Below, piece by piece: positions 11,673 to 28,741 of a stretch of DNA of 33,940 nt. How positions within the stretch are numbered: position 1 is the first letter of the stretch; every line of letters starts with the position of its first letter. The notes below the pieces were generated by a model. It made no database searches and was not told the origin of the DNA. It worked only from the letters and a program-made list of their open reading frames with translations. Made by a program: the position numbers and the translations under genes. Origin of the DNA: Collinsella sp. AF25-2LB (GTDB lineage Bacteria; Actinomycetota; Coriobacteriia; Coriobacteriales; Coriobacteriaceae); assembly GCF_003458415.1 (NCBI RefSeq), contig NZ_QRUF01000021.1, forward strand, positions 1 to 33,940, in the 5' to 3' direction.

Positions 11673-11866
11673 CGTGCGGGTTATATGCAGGTTTGCCTGC
11701 GCACGCTATCATGTATGGGTTAGACCGCAACTATGTACCCCATACGCGAAGGGATGCGCATGTATCTGAGGATCGACATGTTCTAGCCGGGCTTACCCCC
11801 GCAGCGGGGCCCCGCGCCCCATCAATTCTGCCGATTTTCACCTTCACGCATATAAAGGAGTCCGTC
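11673..11866 (+). promoter_or_regulatory. Structured leader upstream of prfA
   Basis: About 190 bases hold several possible hairpins. CGTGC/GCACG encloses GCAGG-TTTG-CCTGC (11673-11705). GTATGGG (11713-11719) pairs perfectly with CCCATAC (11738-11744). A CCCCGC-AGCGGGG stem lies just after the short leader ORF (11760-11786). The prfA ribosome site AAAGGAG is at 11854-11860. No good promoter hexamers are visible. Confidence 0.4.
11760..11786 (+). CDS. Possible 8-codon leader peptide upstream of prfA
   Basis: ATG at 11760 is preceded by GAAGGGA with a 5-6 bp spacer and encodes MYLRIDMF ending in TAG at 11784-11786. It is 80 nt before the prfA start and in a different frame. TAG is read by RF1, the product of prfA, so a regulatory uORF is conceivable. 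Such a short ORF can easily be chance. Confidence 0.3.
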   Translation: MYLRIDMF

Positions 11867-12934
11867 ATGCGCGACAAGCTCGAAAAGATCATCAAGGCCT
11901 ACGAGGAGCTCGAGAAGAAGCTTTCCGACCCGGCCGTCGCCTCCGATATCAAGGAGTTCACGCGTCTCAACAAGGAGTACGCGCACCAGTCCGACCTCAT
12001 TGCCGCCTCGCGCGAGTACATCGGCGCGCTCGATGACATCGAGGCTGCCAAGGAAATGCTGCACGATACCACCGATGCCGATGAGAAGGAGATGCTCCAG
12101 ATGGACATCTCCGAAAACGAGGCCAAGCTCCCCCAGCTCGAGGAAGACATCAAGTACATGCTCATCCCGAGCGACCCCAACGACGACAAGAACACCATCG
12201 TCGAGATCCGCTCCGCCGCCGGTGGCGACGAGGCGGCCATCTTCGCCGGCGACCTGTACAAGATGTATCAGCGCTTTTGTGAGTCGCGCGGCTGGAAGAC
12301 TACCGTGCTCGATTCCAGCCCCAGCGAGGCCGGCGGCTTTAAGTCCATTGAGTTCAAGGTCGAGGGCGACCGCGTCTACTCCGTTATGAAGTACGAGTCC
12401 GGCGTGCACCGTGTCCAGCGCGTCCCCAAGACCGAGTCCCAGGGCCGCATCCAGACTTCAACGGCTACCGTCGCCGTGCTTCCCGAGGCCGAGGAAATCG
12501 ACGTCCAGATCAACCAGTCTGACCTGCGCATCGACACCTACTGCGCCTCCGGCCCTGGCGGTCAGTGCGTTAACACCACCTACTCCGCCGTGCGCATCAC
12601 CCACCTGCCCACCAACACCGTGGTGCAGTCGCAGGAGCAGCGTTCCCAGATCCAGAACCGCGAGGTCTGCATGCAGATGCTGCGCGCCCGTCTGTACGAG
12701 ATGGAACTCGAGAAGCAGCAGGCAGAGCTCGGTGCCGAGCGCCAGAGCCAGATCGGCCACGGTAACCGTTCCGAGAAGATCCGCACCTACAACCAGCCCC
12801 AGGACCGCGTGACCGATCACCGCATCGGTTTCAACTCCACCTACAACGGCGTCCTTCTGGGCGATCAGCTCGGCACCGTGATCGAGGCACTCGCCGCCGC
12901 CGAGCGAGCCGAGAAGCTGGCGCAGGCTGTGTAG
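11867..12934 (+). CDS. prfA: Peptide chain release factor 1 (RF1)
   Basis: This 355-aa release factor recognises UAA and UAG stop codons and triggers peptidyl-tRNA hydrolysis. The GGQ motif is in SGPGGQCVNTT, and the following conserved blocks (QEQRSQIQNRE, RIRTYN-like KIRTYNQPQDRVTDHRIG) fit RF1 rather than RF2. Length is standard. ATG 11867 follows AAAGGAG, and the protein starts with the expected helical MRDKLEKIIKAYEEL. Its own stop codon is TAG. prmC, whose product methylates the GGQ glutamine, lies next downstream. A 147-nt structured element begins 3 bp after the stop. Confidence 0.98.
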   Translation: MRDKLEKIIKAYEELEKKLSDPAVASDIKEFTRLNKEYAHQSDLIAASREYIGALDDIEAAKEMLHDTTDADEKEMLQMDISENEAKLPQLEEDIKYMLIPSDPNDDKNTIVEIRSAAGGDEAAIFAGDLYKMYQRFCESRGWKTTVLDSSPSEAGGFKSIEFKVEGDRVYSVMKYESGVHRVQRVPKTESQGRIQTSTATVAVLPEAEEIDVQINQSDLRIDTYCASGPGGQCVNTTYSAVRITHLPTNTVVQSQEQRSQIQNREVCMQMLRARLYEMELEKQQAELGAERQSQIGHGNRSEKIRTYNQPQDRVTDHRIGFNSTYNGVLLGDQLGTVIEALAAAERAEKLAQAV

Positions 12935-12937
12935 TGG

Positions 12938-13084
12938 GTTACGCGGTTTTGCCAAACCGCGTAACGGCTCGACGCTGCGCGCCGCCCAGAGCGACAATTT
13001 GTCATTCAAAAGGCAAGGCATGACCAGAAGGTCTATGCCTTGCCTTTTTCATGCCAACTTGTTCGCTCTGGACGTCGCTCGCTG
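12938..13084 (+). ncRNA. 147-nt three-stem structured element, copy 1 (3' of prfA)
   Basis: Stem A: GTTACGCGGTTT pairs with AAACCGCGTAAC (12938-12965). Stem B: CCAGAGCG-ACAA pairs with TTGT-T-CGCTCTGG and encloses stem C. Stem C (13011-13045): AGGCAAGGCAT-GACC, loop AGAA, GGTC-T-ATGCCTTGCCT, followed by TTTTT, so it also looks like an intrinsic terminator. A second copy of identical length lies at 28554-28700. Thirteen positions differ, ten of them as five compensated pairs across the three stems. Strand is inferred from the T-tract and from the position after the stop codon. I cannot tell whether it belongs to a named RNA family. Confidence 0.75.
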
Positions 13085-13144
13085 GCATTGCCAAAACATC
13101 GGCGTTTTCTTGGTTGTCAAATGATCCGTAGGGAGTCATTGGGG

Positions 13145-13270
13145 ACATTGCCTTGATATTATATTCAGTCGGCTGTGATGGCATTTTAGTCATTGGGGAC
13201 GTTCTTAAATGACTAGGTTGGGCACATTGCTTTGAGATGTTATTTAATCGGCTTTGATGGCCATTAAGCC
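13145..13270. repeat. Degenerate direct repeat with a family A fragment
   Basis: ACATTGCCTTGATATTAT...TCGGCTGTGATGGC (from 13145) is repeated as ACATTGCTTTGAGATGTT...TCGGCTTTGATGGC (from 13224), offset 79 bp. Between them, 13188-13215 is a shortened family A palindrome (AGTCATT ... AAATGACT around GGGGACGTTCTT). Another GTCATTGGGGAC start lies at about 13135. The region looks like decayed repeat DNA. Confidence 0.6.
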
Positions 13271-27308: not shown

Positions 27309-27320
27309 TGCAGGTTGCCT

Positions 27321-28553
27321 ATGTTTAACAAAAAGCCCCTTGCGGATAACACCCGAAGACCTTCGACTGGCGCGCAGGCTAAGATCTACAGCCGCGACAA
27401 CGTTGCTCGCTATTCCGAGCGCGCCCGCCAGCGCCGTCGCGGACGTACGGTTCGTCGCGTAGCGCTTATCGCCGTGCTCGGCGTGCTGCTGAGCGCCACG
27501 ACCGCTGCGGGCCTGTGGTTTGCCACCATCATGGGCAAACTCGGCGACTCCAATGTCATTACCGACAATCTGCGCCGGGTTCTGGTCGATACCGACGAGG
27601 CAAAAGATCCGTTCTACGTGCTGCTTCTTGGCACCGACGGTCGTCCGGGCGAGGACACGTATCGCGCCGACTCAATTATCTTGGCCCGCATCGATCCTAC
27701 GCAAAAACAGGCAACGCTTATCTCCATTCCGCGCGATACCAAGGTTGTCTATAACGGCTCGACCATGAAGATTAACGCCTGCCATACGTATGGCGGTGCC
27801 GAAGCCATGGTCCAGGCGGTCAACGAGCTGTGCGGCGTTCAGATTTCTCACTATGCCGAGGTCAGCTTTGACGGCATGCAGGCGCTGATTGATTCGGTTG
27901 GCGGTATCGACATTAACGCAACCGATGATGTTGACGACCCCGAGCACCTGGATATTAAGATTACCGCTGGCCAGCAGCATATGGACGGTGCCACCGCCCT
28001 TACCTATGCCCGCTGCCGCTACACCTATGCCGACGGCGATTACACGCGCATGCGCCACCAGCGTCAGGTGCTTGGCGCCCTTGCCAACCAGATTCTCAAT
28101 AACTTCGATGCCACGAAGATCTTTGGCCTGGTTAATTCGCTGTCCGATATGCTCGTGACCGATATGAGCGTTCAGGATATCGTCTCTACGGTCAACGCCA
28201 TGCGCGGTATGGATGTCGACGGTATCTACTCGGCCAACCTGCCTTCGTACGCCGACGACAGCACCATGATTGACGGTGTGAGCTACGTCTTTGTCTACGA
28301 GGACGAGCTCAAGGAAATGATGGAGCGCGTCGATGCCGGCAAGGATCCCAAGGGTCCCAACACCATGGGTCTTTCCGACGGCTCCAGCTCTACGATCGGC
28401 GACCTCAGCAACAACACGTCTGACGACTACGCAAACGGCACCGCAACCTCATCGGTCAGCTCTGACGATTCCGATGGCTCAAGCGATTCGAGCGATTCGG
28501 ACTACTACGAACAGCCCACCGGCGACGGCAACGGTTACGAGGCCAACTACTAA
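27321..28553 (+). CDS. LytR-CpsA-Psr (LCP) family cell-wall ligase
   Basis: This 410-aa type II membrane protein likely attaches polyprenyl-linked glycopolymers to peptidoglycan. An Arg-rich cytoplasmic stretch (about 34-46) and one helix (about 47-70) precede the LCP domain: FYVLLLGTDGR, YRADSIILARID, ISIPRDTKV, KINACHTYGG, LTYARCRY and DYTRMRHQRQVL carry the Asp/Arg residues that bind the lipid pyrophosphate. The C-terminal 60 residues are a Ser/Asp/Thr-rich tail. ATG 27321 is preferred over TTG 27315. It is in tandem with murA, and a structured element begins directly after its stop. Confidence 0.92.
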   Translation: MFNKKPLADNTRRPSTGAQAKIYSRDNVARYSERARQRRRGRTVRRVALIAVLGVLLSATTAAGLWFATIMGKLGDSNVITDNLRRVLVDTDEAKDPFYVLLLGTDGRPGEDTYRADSIILARIDPTQKQATLISIPRDTKVVYNGSTMKINACHTYGGAEAMVQAVNELCGVQISHYAEVSFDGMQALIDSVGGIDINATDDVDDPEHLDIKITAGQQHMDGATALTYARCRYTYADGDYTRMRHQRQVLGALANQILNNFDATKIFGLVNSLSDMLVTDMSVQDIVSTVNAMRGMDVDGIYSANLPSYADDSTMIDGVSYVFVYEDELKEMMERVDAGKDPKGPNTMGLSDGSSSTIGDLSNNTSDDYANGTATSSVSSDDSDGSSDSSDSDYYEQPTGDGNGYEANY

Positions 28554-28700
28554 GTTACGGCGTTTTACCAAACGCCGTAACGACTCGACGCTGCGCGCCG
28601 CCCAAGGCGACAATTTGTCATTCAAAAGGCAGGGCATGACCAGAAGGTCAATGCCCTGCCTTTTTCATGCCAACTTGTTCGCCTTGGACGTCGCTCGCTG
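28554..28700 (+). ncRNA. 147-nt three-stem structured element, copy 2 (3' of LCP gene)
   Basis: It begins on the base after the LCP stop codon. Stem A is GTTACGGCGTTT / AAACGCCGTAAC (28554-28581); stem B is CCAAGGCG-ACAA / TTGT-T-CGCCTTGG; stem C is AGGCAGGGCAT-GACC, AGAA, GGTC-A-ATGCCCTGCCT (28627-28661) followed by TTTTT. Spacing between stems is identical to copy 1 at 12938-13084. Loops and linkers (for example GACAATTTGTCATTCAAAAGGC, split by stems) are almost unchanged, while stem changes are compensated. Confidence 0.75.
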
Positions 28701-28741
28701 ACGTTGGCTCAACCTGCGATGTTGACTACTCCCCTTGTATC

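Follow-up and report, generated by a model that had tools for sequence, protein, structure and literature searches.

A modular palindromic repeat, mostly anchored at stop codons, in genomes across the order Coriobacteriales

Two copies of a two-hairpin element behind prfA and an LCP gene

The window analyzed here, a stretch of 33,940 nucleotides from Collinsella sp. AF25-2LB (contig NZ_QRUF01000021.1), carries prfA and a gene of the LCP family, each followed by a copy of the same two-hairpin element (Table 1). The first copy starts 3 nt past the TAG stop codon of prfA (12932-12934), and the second starts immediately past the TAA stop codon of the LCP gene (28551-28553). Read from the stop codon, the element consists of a short hairpin (hairpin A; a 12-bp stem with a loop of 3-4 nt of the form T..C), a linker ending in the word CGACGCTGCG, a long imperfect hairpin, the word CGCTGAC and a tail. 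The long hairpin is itself composed of an outer stem, an internal loop, a segment of 6-7 bp, another internal loop and an inner hairpin; the AGAA loop of copy 1 lies at 13026-13029. Compared with dinucleotide shuffles, the folds of the two copies gave z values of -9.0 and -10.4, with 0 of 200 shuffles as good.

The initial annotation had described a duplicated 147-nt element with five compensated base pairs. Alignment of the 147-nt stretches 12938-13084 and 28554-28700 gave exactly the 13 differing positions that had been claimed; ten of these form five compensated pairs (12944/12959, 12945/12958, 12989/13068, 12990/13067 and 13016/13040), and the remaining three lie in the loop of hairpin A (12951), in the linker (12967) and in a bulge (13034). 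The likeness of the two copies thus stands, but neither the limits of the unit nor the notion of a mere duplication does: the covariance model described below places the copies at 12938-13086 and 28554-28702, the tail adds about 25 nt, and the element in the window is a member of a multi-copy dispersed repeat family. This dispersed nature, the tie to stop codons and the shuffling of modules had all been missed. In addition, a second repeat, AGTCATTGGGGACGTTCTTAAATGACT, is present at 13134-13149 and 13188-13215, downstream of copy 1, and also downstream of many other copies.

Table 1. Positions of the genes, the two element copies and their parts in the window
Feature	Position	Strand	Basis
prfA, peptide chain release factor 1	11693..12934	+	TIGR00019, 478 bits (cut-off 423); open frame taken from the first start codon, with the family match beginning at residue 58-63
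Copy 1, whole model span, after prfA	12938..13086	+	R1 158.2 bits, R2 149.4 bits
Copy 1, hairpin A (12-bp stem, TGCC loop)	12938..12965	+	Predicted folds
Copy 1, linker containing the conserved word CGACGCTGCG	12966..12979	+	Counts of CGACGCTG across copies
Copy 1, long imperfect hairpin (borders approximate), closing with CGCTGGC (usually CGCTGAC)	12976..13086	+	Folds, covariation
Copy 1, stretch bounded by the TC/TC internal loop (13006-13007 with 13049-13050)	13006..13050	+	TC/TC in 101 of 104 A6 rows
Copy 1, tail of type ATTGCCAAAACATCGGCG	13087..13113	+	One of three tail types distinguished by eye at the prfA site
LCP family glycopolymer transferase (LCP/LytR) gene	27315..28553	+	TIGR00350, 138 bits (cut-off 62); PF03816
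Copy 2, after the LCP gene	28554..28702	+	R1 160.7 bits, R2 151.7 bits
Copy 2, hairpin A	28554..28581	+	Predicted fold
Copy 2, long hairpin (borders approximate)	28592..28702	+	Fold, model alignment
Copy 2, tail of type GTTGGCTCAACCTGCG	28703..28724	+	Read in the sequence

Distribution, conserved words and covariation in the order

The covariance-model search of relatives that the initial annotation had proposed recovered many further copies across the order. In the nearest genome (G001), BLAST gave 30 matches, several of which were the two strands of one copy, and the model R1, built from 15 copies of this genome and the two window copies (two further printed copies were left out), gave 41 matches at E <= 0.01, three of them the opposite strand of another, corresponding to 38 places. 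At E <= 1e-6, R1 matched 45 of the 65 searched genomes of the Collinsella family (f1). In 21 genomes of the genus Collinsella it found 21-37 matches each, a count in which opposite-strand matches of one copy may be included twice; the rest of the genus gave 11 matches in one incomplete genome and 0-10 in the other 21 genomes, and other genera of the family gave 0-15. When named genomes were scanned for hairpin A, at least 120 stretches were found, and all 80 among the matches listed were from Collinsella. A portion of 450 kb from an annotated C. aerofaciens record contained six matches, four strong and two weak.

Beyond this family, the broader model R2, built from 105 matches (alignment A6), matched 140 of 297 genomes of the order Coriobacteriales, representing 43 of 107 genera and four families, in a census that scored 10 candidates per genome; eight genomes from two other families (f2 and f5) that were searched more deeply had 2-48 matches each. 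Within a sample of 296 genomes of the phylum, the 14 that matched were all from the same order, and the repeat has so far been found in this order alone.

Most copies were in the sense orientation, directly behind a stop codon. In the Collinsella family, 77 of 106 copies began from 7 nt after to 2 nt inside a stop codon, 18 were further from a stop and 11 had no such frame within 150 nt; this count considered frames of at least 100 codons and started from 112 rows (107 distinct, one with too little flanking sequence), leaving out weak, cut-off, reverse-strand and some edge rows, and it scored orthologous sites separately, so that the copies are not independent. The commonest arrangement (30 copies) was one in which the element and a TAG stop share the G, and the stops at the elements were TAG in 61 cases, TAA in 14 and TGA in 2, compared with 100, 75 and 36 in the background of long frames. 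In family f2, with frames of at least 80 codons and 40 of the 48 matches in G120, 20 of 26 in G272 and 20 of 27 in G288, 50 of 80 copies were situated within -7 to +3 of a stop, 9 within 32 nt, and 21 had none within 40 nt; by the same measure, 14 of 400 positions drawn at random from these loci were near a stop. The four strong matches in the C. aerofaciens record follow the stops of the SDR, M20 peptidase, queA and tyrS genes, at distances of 2 nt and 1 nt and, in two cases, with an overlap of 1 nt; the two weak ones are not anchored in this way, as one overlaps the end of map and one lies antisense between genes. In two divergent copies (L160:4291-4440 and L056), the stop codon and the last codons were seen by eye to lie inside the outer stem.

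Between families, the stems are almost wholly different and the end words unchanged. The word CGACGCTG was found in 80 of 105 copies from f1 and 63 of 80 from f2, and 94 of the 105 f1 copies and 75 of the 80 f2 copies carried TCGCTG at the 3' end; likewise, the loop of hairpin A began with T and ended with C in 50 of 50 hairpins read from the Collinsella family and 59 of 62 from f2. The TC/TC internal loop of the long hairpin (GA/GA on the other strand) was kept in 101 of 104 distinct A6 rows, whereas a loose TC/TC pattern fitted just 27 of 80 f2 copies; it is therefore a feature of the Collinsella family. Hairpin A is not recognizable in some copies from other genera, and it stands alone at some sites. 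Internal deletions were observed in L014, L142, L129 and L139, at least one of them flanked by short direct repeats, a pattern that the loss of palindromes in replication would be expected to leave.

The further copies also allowed the pairing to be evaluated. In A6 (104 distinct rows), 94.9% of the cells pair, 44 of 47 pairs changed on both sides, and the covariation score was 0.554, compared with 0.159 after shuffling and 0.057-0.098 after sliding. In A7, an alignment of 82 f2 rows of which none had been used in building the model, 88.9% of the cells pair, 42 of 47 pairs changed on both sides, and the score was 0.563 (0.161 shuffled, 0.069-0.099 slid); each of the two alignments had been fitted to the structure of the model. 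A tree-based null was computed with our own script in the manner of R-scape, by re-dealing the substitutions along the tree in 60 replicates (E < 0.05), and it is a single-tree null that ignores the inferred recombination. Against it, 20 of 47 pairs were significant in A6 (73 of 105 rows kept) and 23 of 47 in A7 (72 of 82 rows kept), so that covariation exceeds the phylogenetic expectation in the additional copies, as the initial annotation had anticipated. Overall, 32 column pairs were significant in A6 and 29 in A7; 7 of the other 12 in the former and 4 of the other 6 in the latter lay within 2 nt of a pair. In these alignments, conservation of the pairing despite sequence change is well supported.

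Exchange of modules at gene ends and the search for a mobilizer

A survey of the end of prfA found a strong match in 41 of 43 genomes of the genus (a 42nd gave a weak paralogous match), and 30 loci were fetched. At 20 of them an element starts at the stop codon, with three cut by a contig end or an inserted IS-like sequence; over the end of prfA, these 20 loci share 94-98% identity with the window. They nevertheless carry hairpin A, long hairpin and tail in several different combinations, with one combination common to some of the loci, and three tail types were distinguished by eye. The other 10 loci, with 90-91% identity, have no element, and an ordinary-looking terminator was seen by eye at eight of them. 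In the last three prfA codons the third-position diversity was 0.69, 0.60 and 0.43 (21 rows), compared with a mean of 0.113 (sd 0.157) elsewhere in the gene, where 6 of 131 positions reached 0.5 or more; this raised diversity suggests that the exchanges end there.

Other gene ends vary in presence as well as in content. At one of them, in L157, there is no element and the stop codon is followed by an ordinary terminator, and the same site was found in five distinct element-bearing sequences, four of which have apparently the same terminator beyond the element; in the fifth (L173) that terminator was not seen within 430 nt. A third site occurs in full, truncated and absent states, with the terminator kept. 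Thus, at two sites the stop codon is followed first by the element and then by an ordinary terminator, and for this reason a plain terminator does not explain the element, as had been argued at the outset. In L284 and L288, from two genomes of the genus, copies with different stems directly follow what is apparently the same short-chain dehydrogenase gene end. The nearest case of an empty site, L157, has a difference of about 20 nt there, and none of the sites compared was a cleanly empty one with a target duplication.

Regarding a possible mobilizer, the pattern within the genus initially favored a RAYT (Y1_Tnp) gene, as six of six genomes without Y1_Tnp lacked R1 matches at E <= 1e-6. This candidate was countered by R2 matches in three of those six genomes (G020, G022 and G043) and by G120, G132 and G272, which have 23-48 matches each without Y1_Tnp (48 in G120); G003 and G005 also have element matches without Y1_Tnp, and the occurrence of Y1_Tnp does not follow that of the element across the order. 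When 30 Y1_Tnp loci, a part of all Y1_Tnp matches, were searched with R1, one copy was found, and it held an inserted IS200; no RAYT flanked by the repeat was found in the loci and genomes examined. TGGGGAC words flank the Y1_Tnp genes in L250 and L252, and the second repeat AGTCATTGGGGACGTTCTTAAATGACT may be the true REP of RAYT genes. In L020/L240 (G001:C3:62897-63550), a copy with a replaced 3' part has a gene for an IS200-type Y1 transposase behind it, and in L218 a similar insertion-like sequence change interrupts a copy. Pattern or similarity searches of viral contigs and phages gave no matches. In the plasmid collection a single record matched, the 900-kb C. aerofaciens record NZ_OY725717.1 (L291-L299); this record, labelled plasmid 6, carries recA, a ribosomal protein gene, secA and groEL and looks chromosomal.

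Taken together, the element is a real, order-wide and mostly stop-anchored palindromic repeat with modular exchange: it is multi-copy, occurs in four families of the order, lies mostly in sense behind stop codons, and has modules, namely hairpin A, outer stem, inner hairpin and tail, that stand in different combinations at one site, with the pairing kept.

Strand preference, competing explanations and known systems

A structure selected as sense RNA is expected to tolerate G.U more than A.C, and a control on 13 tRNAs gave 4 GT and 0 AC cells, too few for a firm expectation. In the long hairpin, small counts showed no excess of G.U: among pairs that were at least 85% Watson-Crick, there were 33 GT and 42 AC cells in f1 (27 pairs, p 0.36) and 30 GT and 53 AC cells in f2 (25 pairs, p 0.015). 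This filter was applied because the unfiltered counts (103 GT and 92 AC over all pairs in f1; 63 GT and 228 AC in the long hairpin in f2) take in poorly formed model pairs, especially in f2. Moreover, in 150 of 152 cores of the long hairpin the antisense strand had the more stable fold (80 of 82 in f1 and 70 of 70 in f2, with RNA parameters), with mean values of -72.6 against -63.6 for the sense strand in f1 and -82.6 against -67.1 in f2; with DNA parameters it was better in 79 of 82 and 70 of 70. The cores are the copies with the word GACGCTG or GACGC (82 of 91 full-length f1 rows and 70 of 80 f2 copies). For hairpin A, the model alignments gave a G.U asymmetry (31 GT and 4 AC in f1, 31 and 8 in f2; 22 and 3 tree events) that direct reading of the hairpins attributed partly to misalignment. 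The direct counts were 3 GT and 2 AC in f1 and 24 GT and 6 AC in f2, 14 of the 24 being at the closing pair; on these counts, hairpin A may yet be a structured RNA. The initial annotation had held that selection acts on RNA (or cruciform) structure. That structure is kept is upheld, but RNA specifically is disfavored by both the pairing counts and the strand comparison, and the term cruciform was closer. The absence of a G.U excess and the better antisense fold favor a DNA hairpin with a preferred strand, which from the sequences would be the likeliest of these options as the object of selection, although the conserved pyrimidine mismatches could be readable by a protein on the sense RNA too.

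We therefore consider it close to an even chance that the element is an order-wide, dispersed non-coding palindromic repeat of the REP/BIME/ERIC kind that moves from one gene end to another, with selection acting mainly on a DNA hairpin. The mismatches (in the Collinsella family TC/TC, or GA/GA on the opposite strand) would make the antisense strand the better-folding one, and since that strand folds better, a putative enzyme with single-stranded hairpins as its substrate could, as we propose, tell the orientation of a palindrome that is otherwise symmetric. Copying or recombination through the hairpin would yield new copies and module swaps, and an element would survive best right behind a stop codon, where both the protein and the promoter of the following gene would be spared. 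In a 3' untranslated region the element would also have to change the mRNA end, perhaps with a secondary benefit. Against this explanation, copies lie closer to the stop codon than gene avoidance alone would bring them, and the searches found no mobilizing gene and no clean empty site with a target duplication. A bolder version, in which order-wide, strand-polarized DNA hairpins at stop codons are recombined in place by a putative enzyme and cassettes are swapped among dozens of loci, seems to us unlikely; if true, it would be a chromosomal counterpart to attC-like bottom-strand recombination, with gene ends as the exchange sites.

The mostly sense, stop-anchored position, the very stable sense fold with strong covariation, the G.U excess read directly in f2 hairpin A and the precedent of ERIC RNA that alters mRNA stability (described in part in PMC2229807) are what would be expected of a 3'-untranslated mRNA element selected as RNA, which might protect the 3' end, direct processing (e.g., cleavage of the long stem by RNase III) or influence the release of ribosomes. 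Such an element is possible but on balance improbable, given the long hairpin without a G.U excess, the antisense preference of the cores, the share of closing pairs among the f2 hairpin-A cells and the near-even direct count in f1. A family of (partly bidirectional) intrinsic transcription terminators spread by recombination is quite unlikely: the window subfamily has TTTTT after the inner stem, a loose home-made scan found a terminator-like hairpin inside 57 of 107 copies, ordinary-looking terminators occupy most of the element-free prfA loci, and terminator-like sites up to 300 nt downstream were moderately commoner than in shuffled sequence (44 vs 28 of 101), but by eye many inner modules have no U tract, a separate terminator is still present downstream at the two sites described above, and hairpin A, the outer stem and CGACGCTGCG would be superfluous for a terminator.

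The better-folding antisense strand could alternatively belong to a functional small RNA transcribed on the opposite strand in the direction of the stop codon. The excess of A.C on the gene strand (G.U on the opposite one) over G.U in f2 would fit this, with f1 leaning the same way at p 0.36; however, of 92 next long frames scored, 53 were co-directional and 39 convergent, so that there is often no neighbor to transcribe the element, and we give this possibility a very small chance. Equally small is the chance that these are neutral palindromes on whose fold selection does not act and in which template-switch correction or block exchange alone maintains the match between the arms. Along the tree branches of the long hairpin, 203 changes led from one Watson-Crick pair to another, compared with 43 to GT, 59 to AC and 64 to others, and the GT and AC counts are similar, as such correction would produce; the persistence of the TC/TC mismatch in the f1 rows argues against mere arm-to-arm correction, as do ends and an architecture common to several families. 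Interspersed palindromes are already known, but the repeat described here combines several features: the tie to stop codons, varied modules at one site among near-identical genes, two unlike hairpins persisting across the families of an order and, in the Collinsella family, a fixed mismatch that gives a strand. The repeat family is thus a new puzzle in the evolution of bacterial gene ends. It makes a long-standing question testable, namely whether bacterial 3'-end repeats are kept for mRNA ends or for DNA mobility, and the gut Collinsella genomes provide a natural series in which the same gene occurs with or without the element or with different modules.

Comparison with Rfam, which had been suggested at the outset, found no family at the gathering cut-offs on the window element or anywhere else in the window, and in 16 other loci the one match was a tRNA away from the element. 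A permissive scan around copy 1 gave 11 matches far below the cut-off, mostly microRNA-like (the best being mir-789, 30.5/100 bits). The Collinsella-1 RNA (RF01700) is likewise a candidate structured RNA from the same group, but it is a different RNA, with one copy in two of three genomes searched, at another place. The open-licence literature on repeats in Collinsella, Coriobacteriales or Eggerthella gave no description of the element, and the palindromic repeat family is apparently undescribed; PMC8040213 reports 250 palindromic candidate RNAs, and an overlap with the element could lie in its tables.

Among known kinds, the element may work like REP/BIME or ERIC. The antisense strand of the element reads CGTC beyond the hairpin foot. 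With REPs and BIMEs, as portrayed in part in PMC3733652, the element shares its dispersed palindromic nature, its many subfamilies and the conservation of unpaired words at the foot of the hairpin, and CGTC REPs are there also described without an associated transposase. A REP, however, is a palindrome of 20-40 bp, whereas the element is about 150 bp, has two unlike hairpins in one orientation and is tied to stop codons. GTAG-type REPs have a GTAG tag at the foot and a flanked RAYT (Y1_Tnp) gene, while the units here are about 148 bp with the foot words CGACGCTGCG and CGCTGAC, no GTAG tag, and no such gene in the loci and genomes examined; CGTC REPs have a CGTC tag, a stem of 8-9 bp and a CCA tail, while the element stems are 12 bp and more than 30 bp. 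ERIC/IRU-like repeats, as far as outlined in PMC2229807, resemble the element in their similar length, long stem, tens of copies and intergenic position. Unlike in these and MITE-like repeats, neither a terminal inverted repeat spanning the entire unit nor a TA duplication was seen for the element, and it shows modular exchange of concentric stems. Because it departs from both the GTAG and the CGTC REPs and no target duplication was shown, we did not file it under REP or ERIC. Integron attC sites, which an IntI-type integrase exchanges within arrays of cassettes, are imperfect hairpins just behind stop codons in which structure is kept under sequence drift and the bottom strand is preferred. 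The element is attC-like in its hairpins behind stops, its fold kept while the sequence drifts and its better-folding antisense strand; attC ends, however, read AAC..GTT and those of hairpin A read GTT..AAC, an orientation that argues against attC, and here, unlike at attC sites, no cassette array was noticed and ordinary chromosomal genes stay put.
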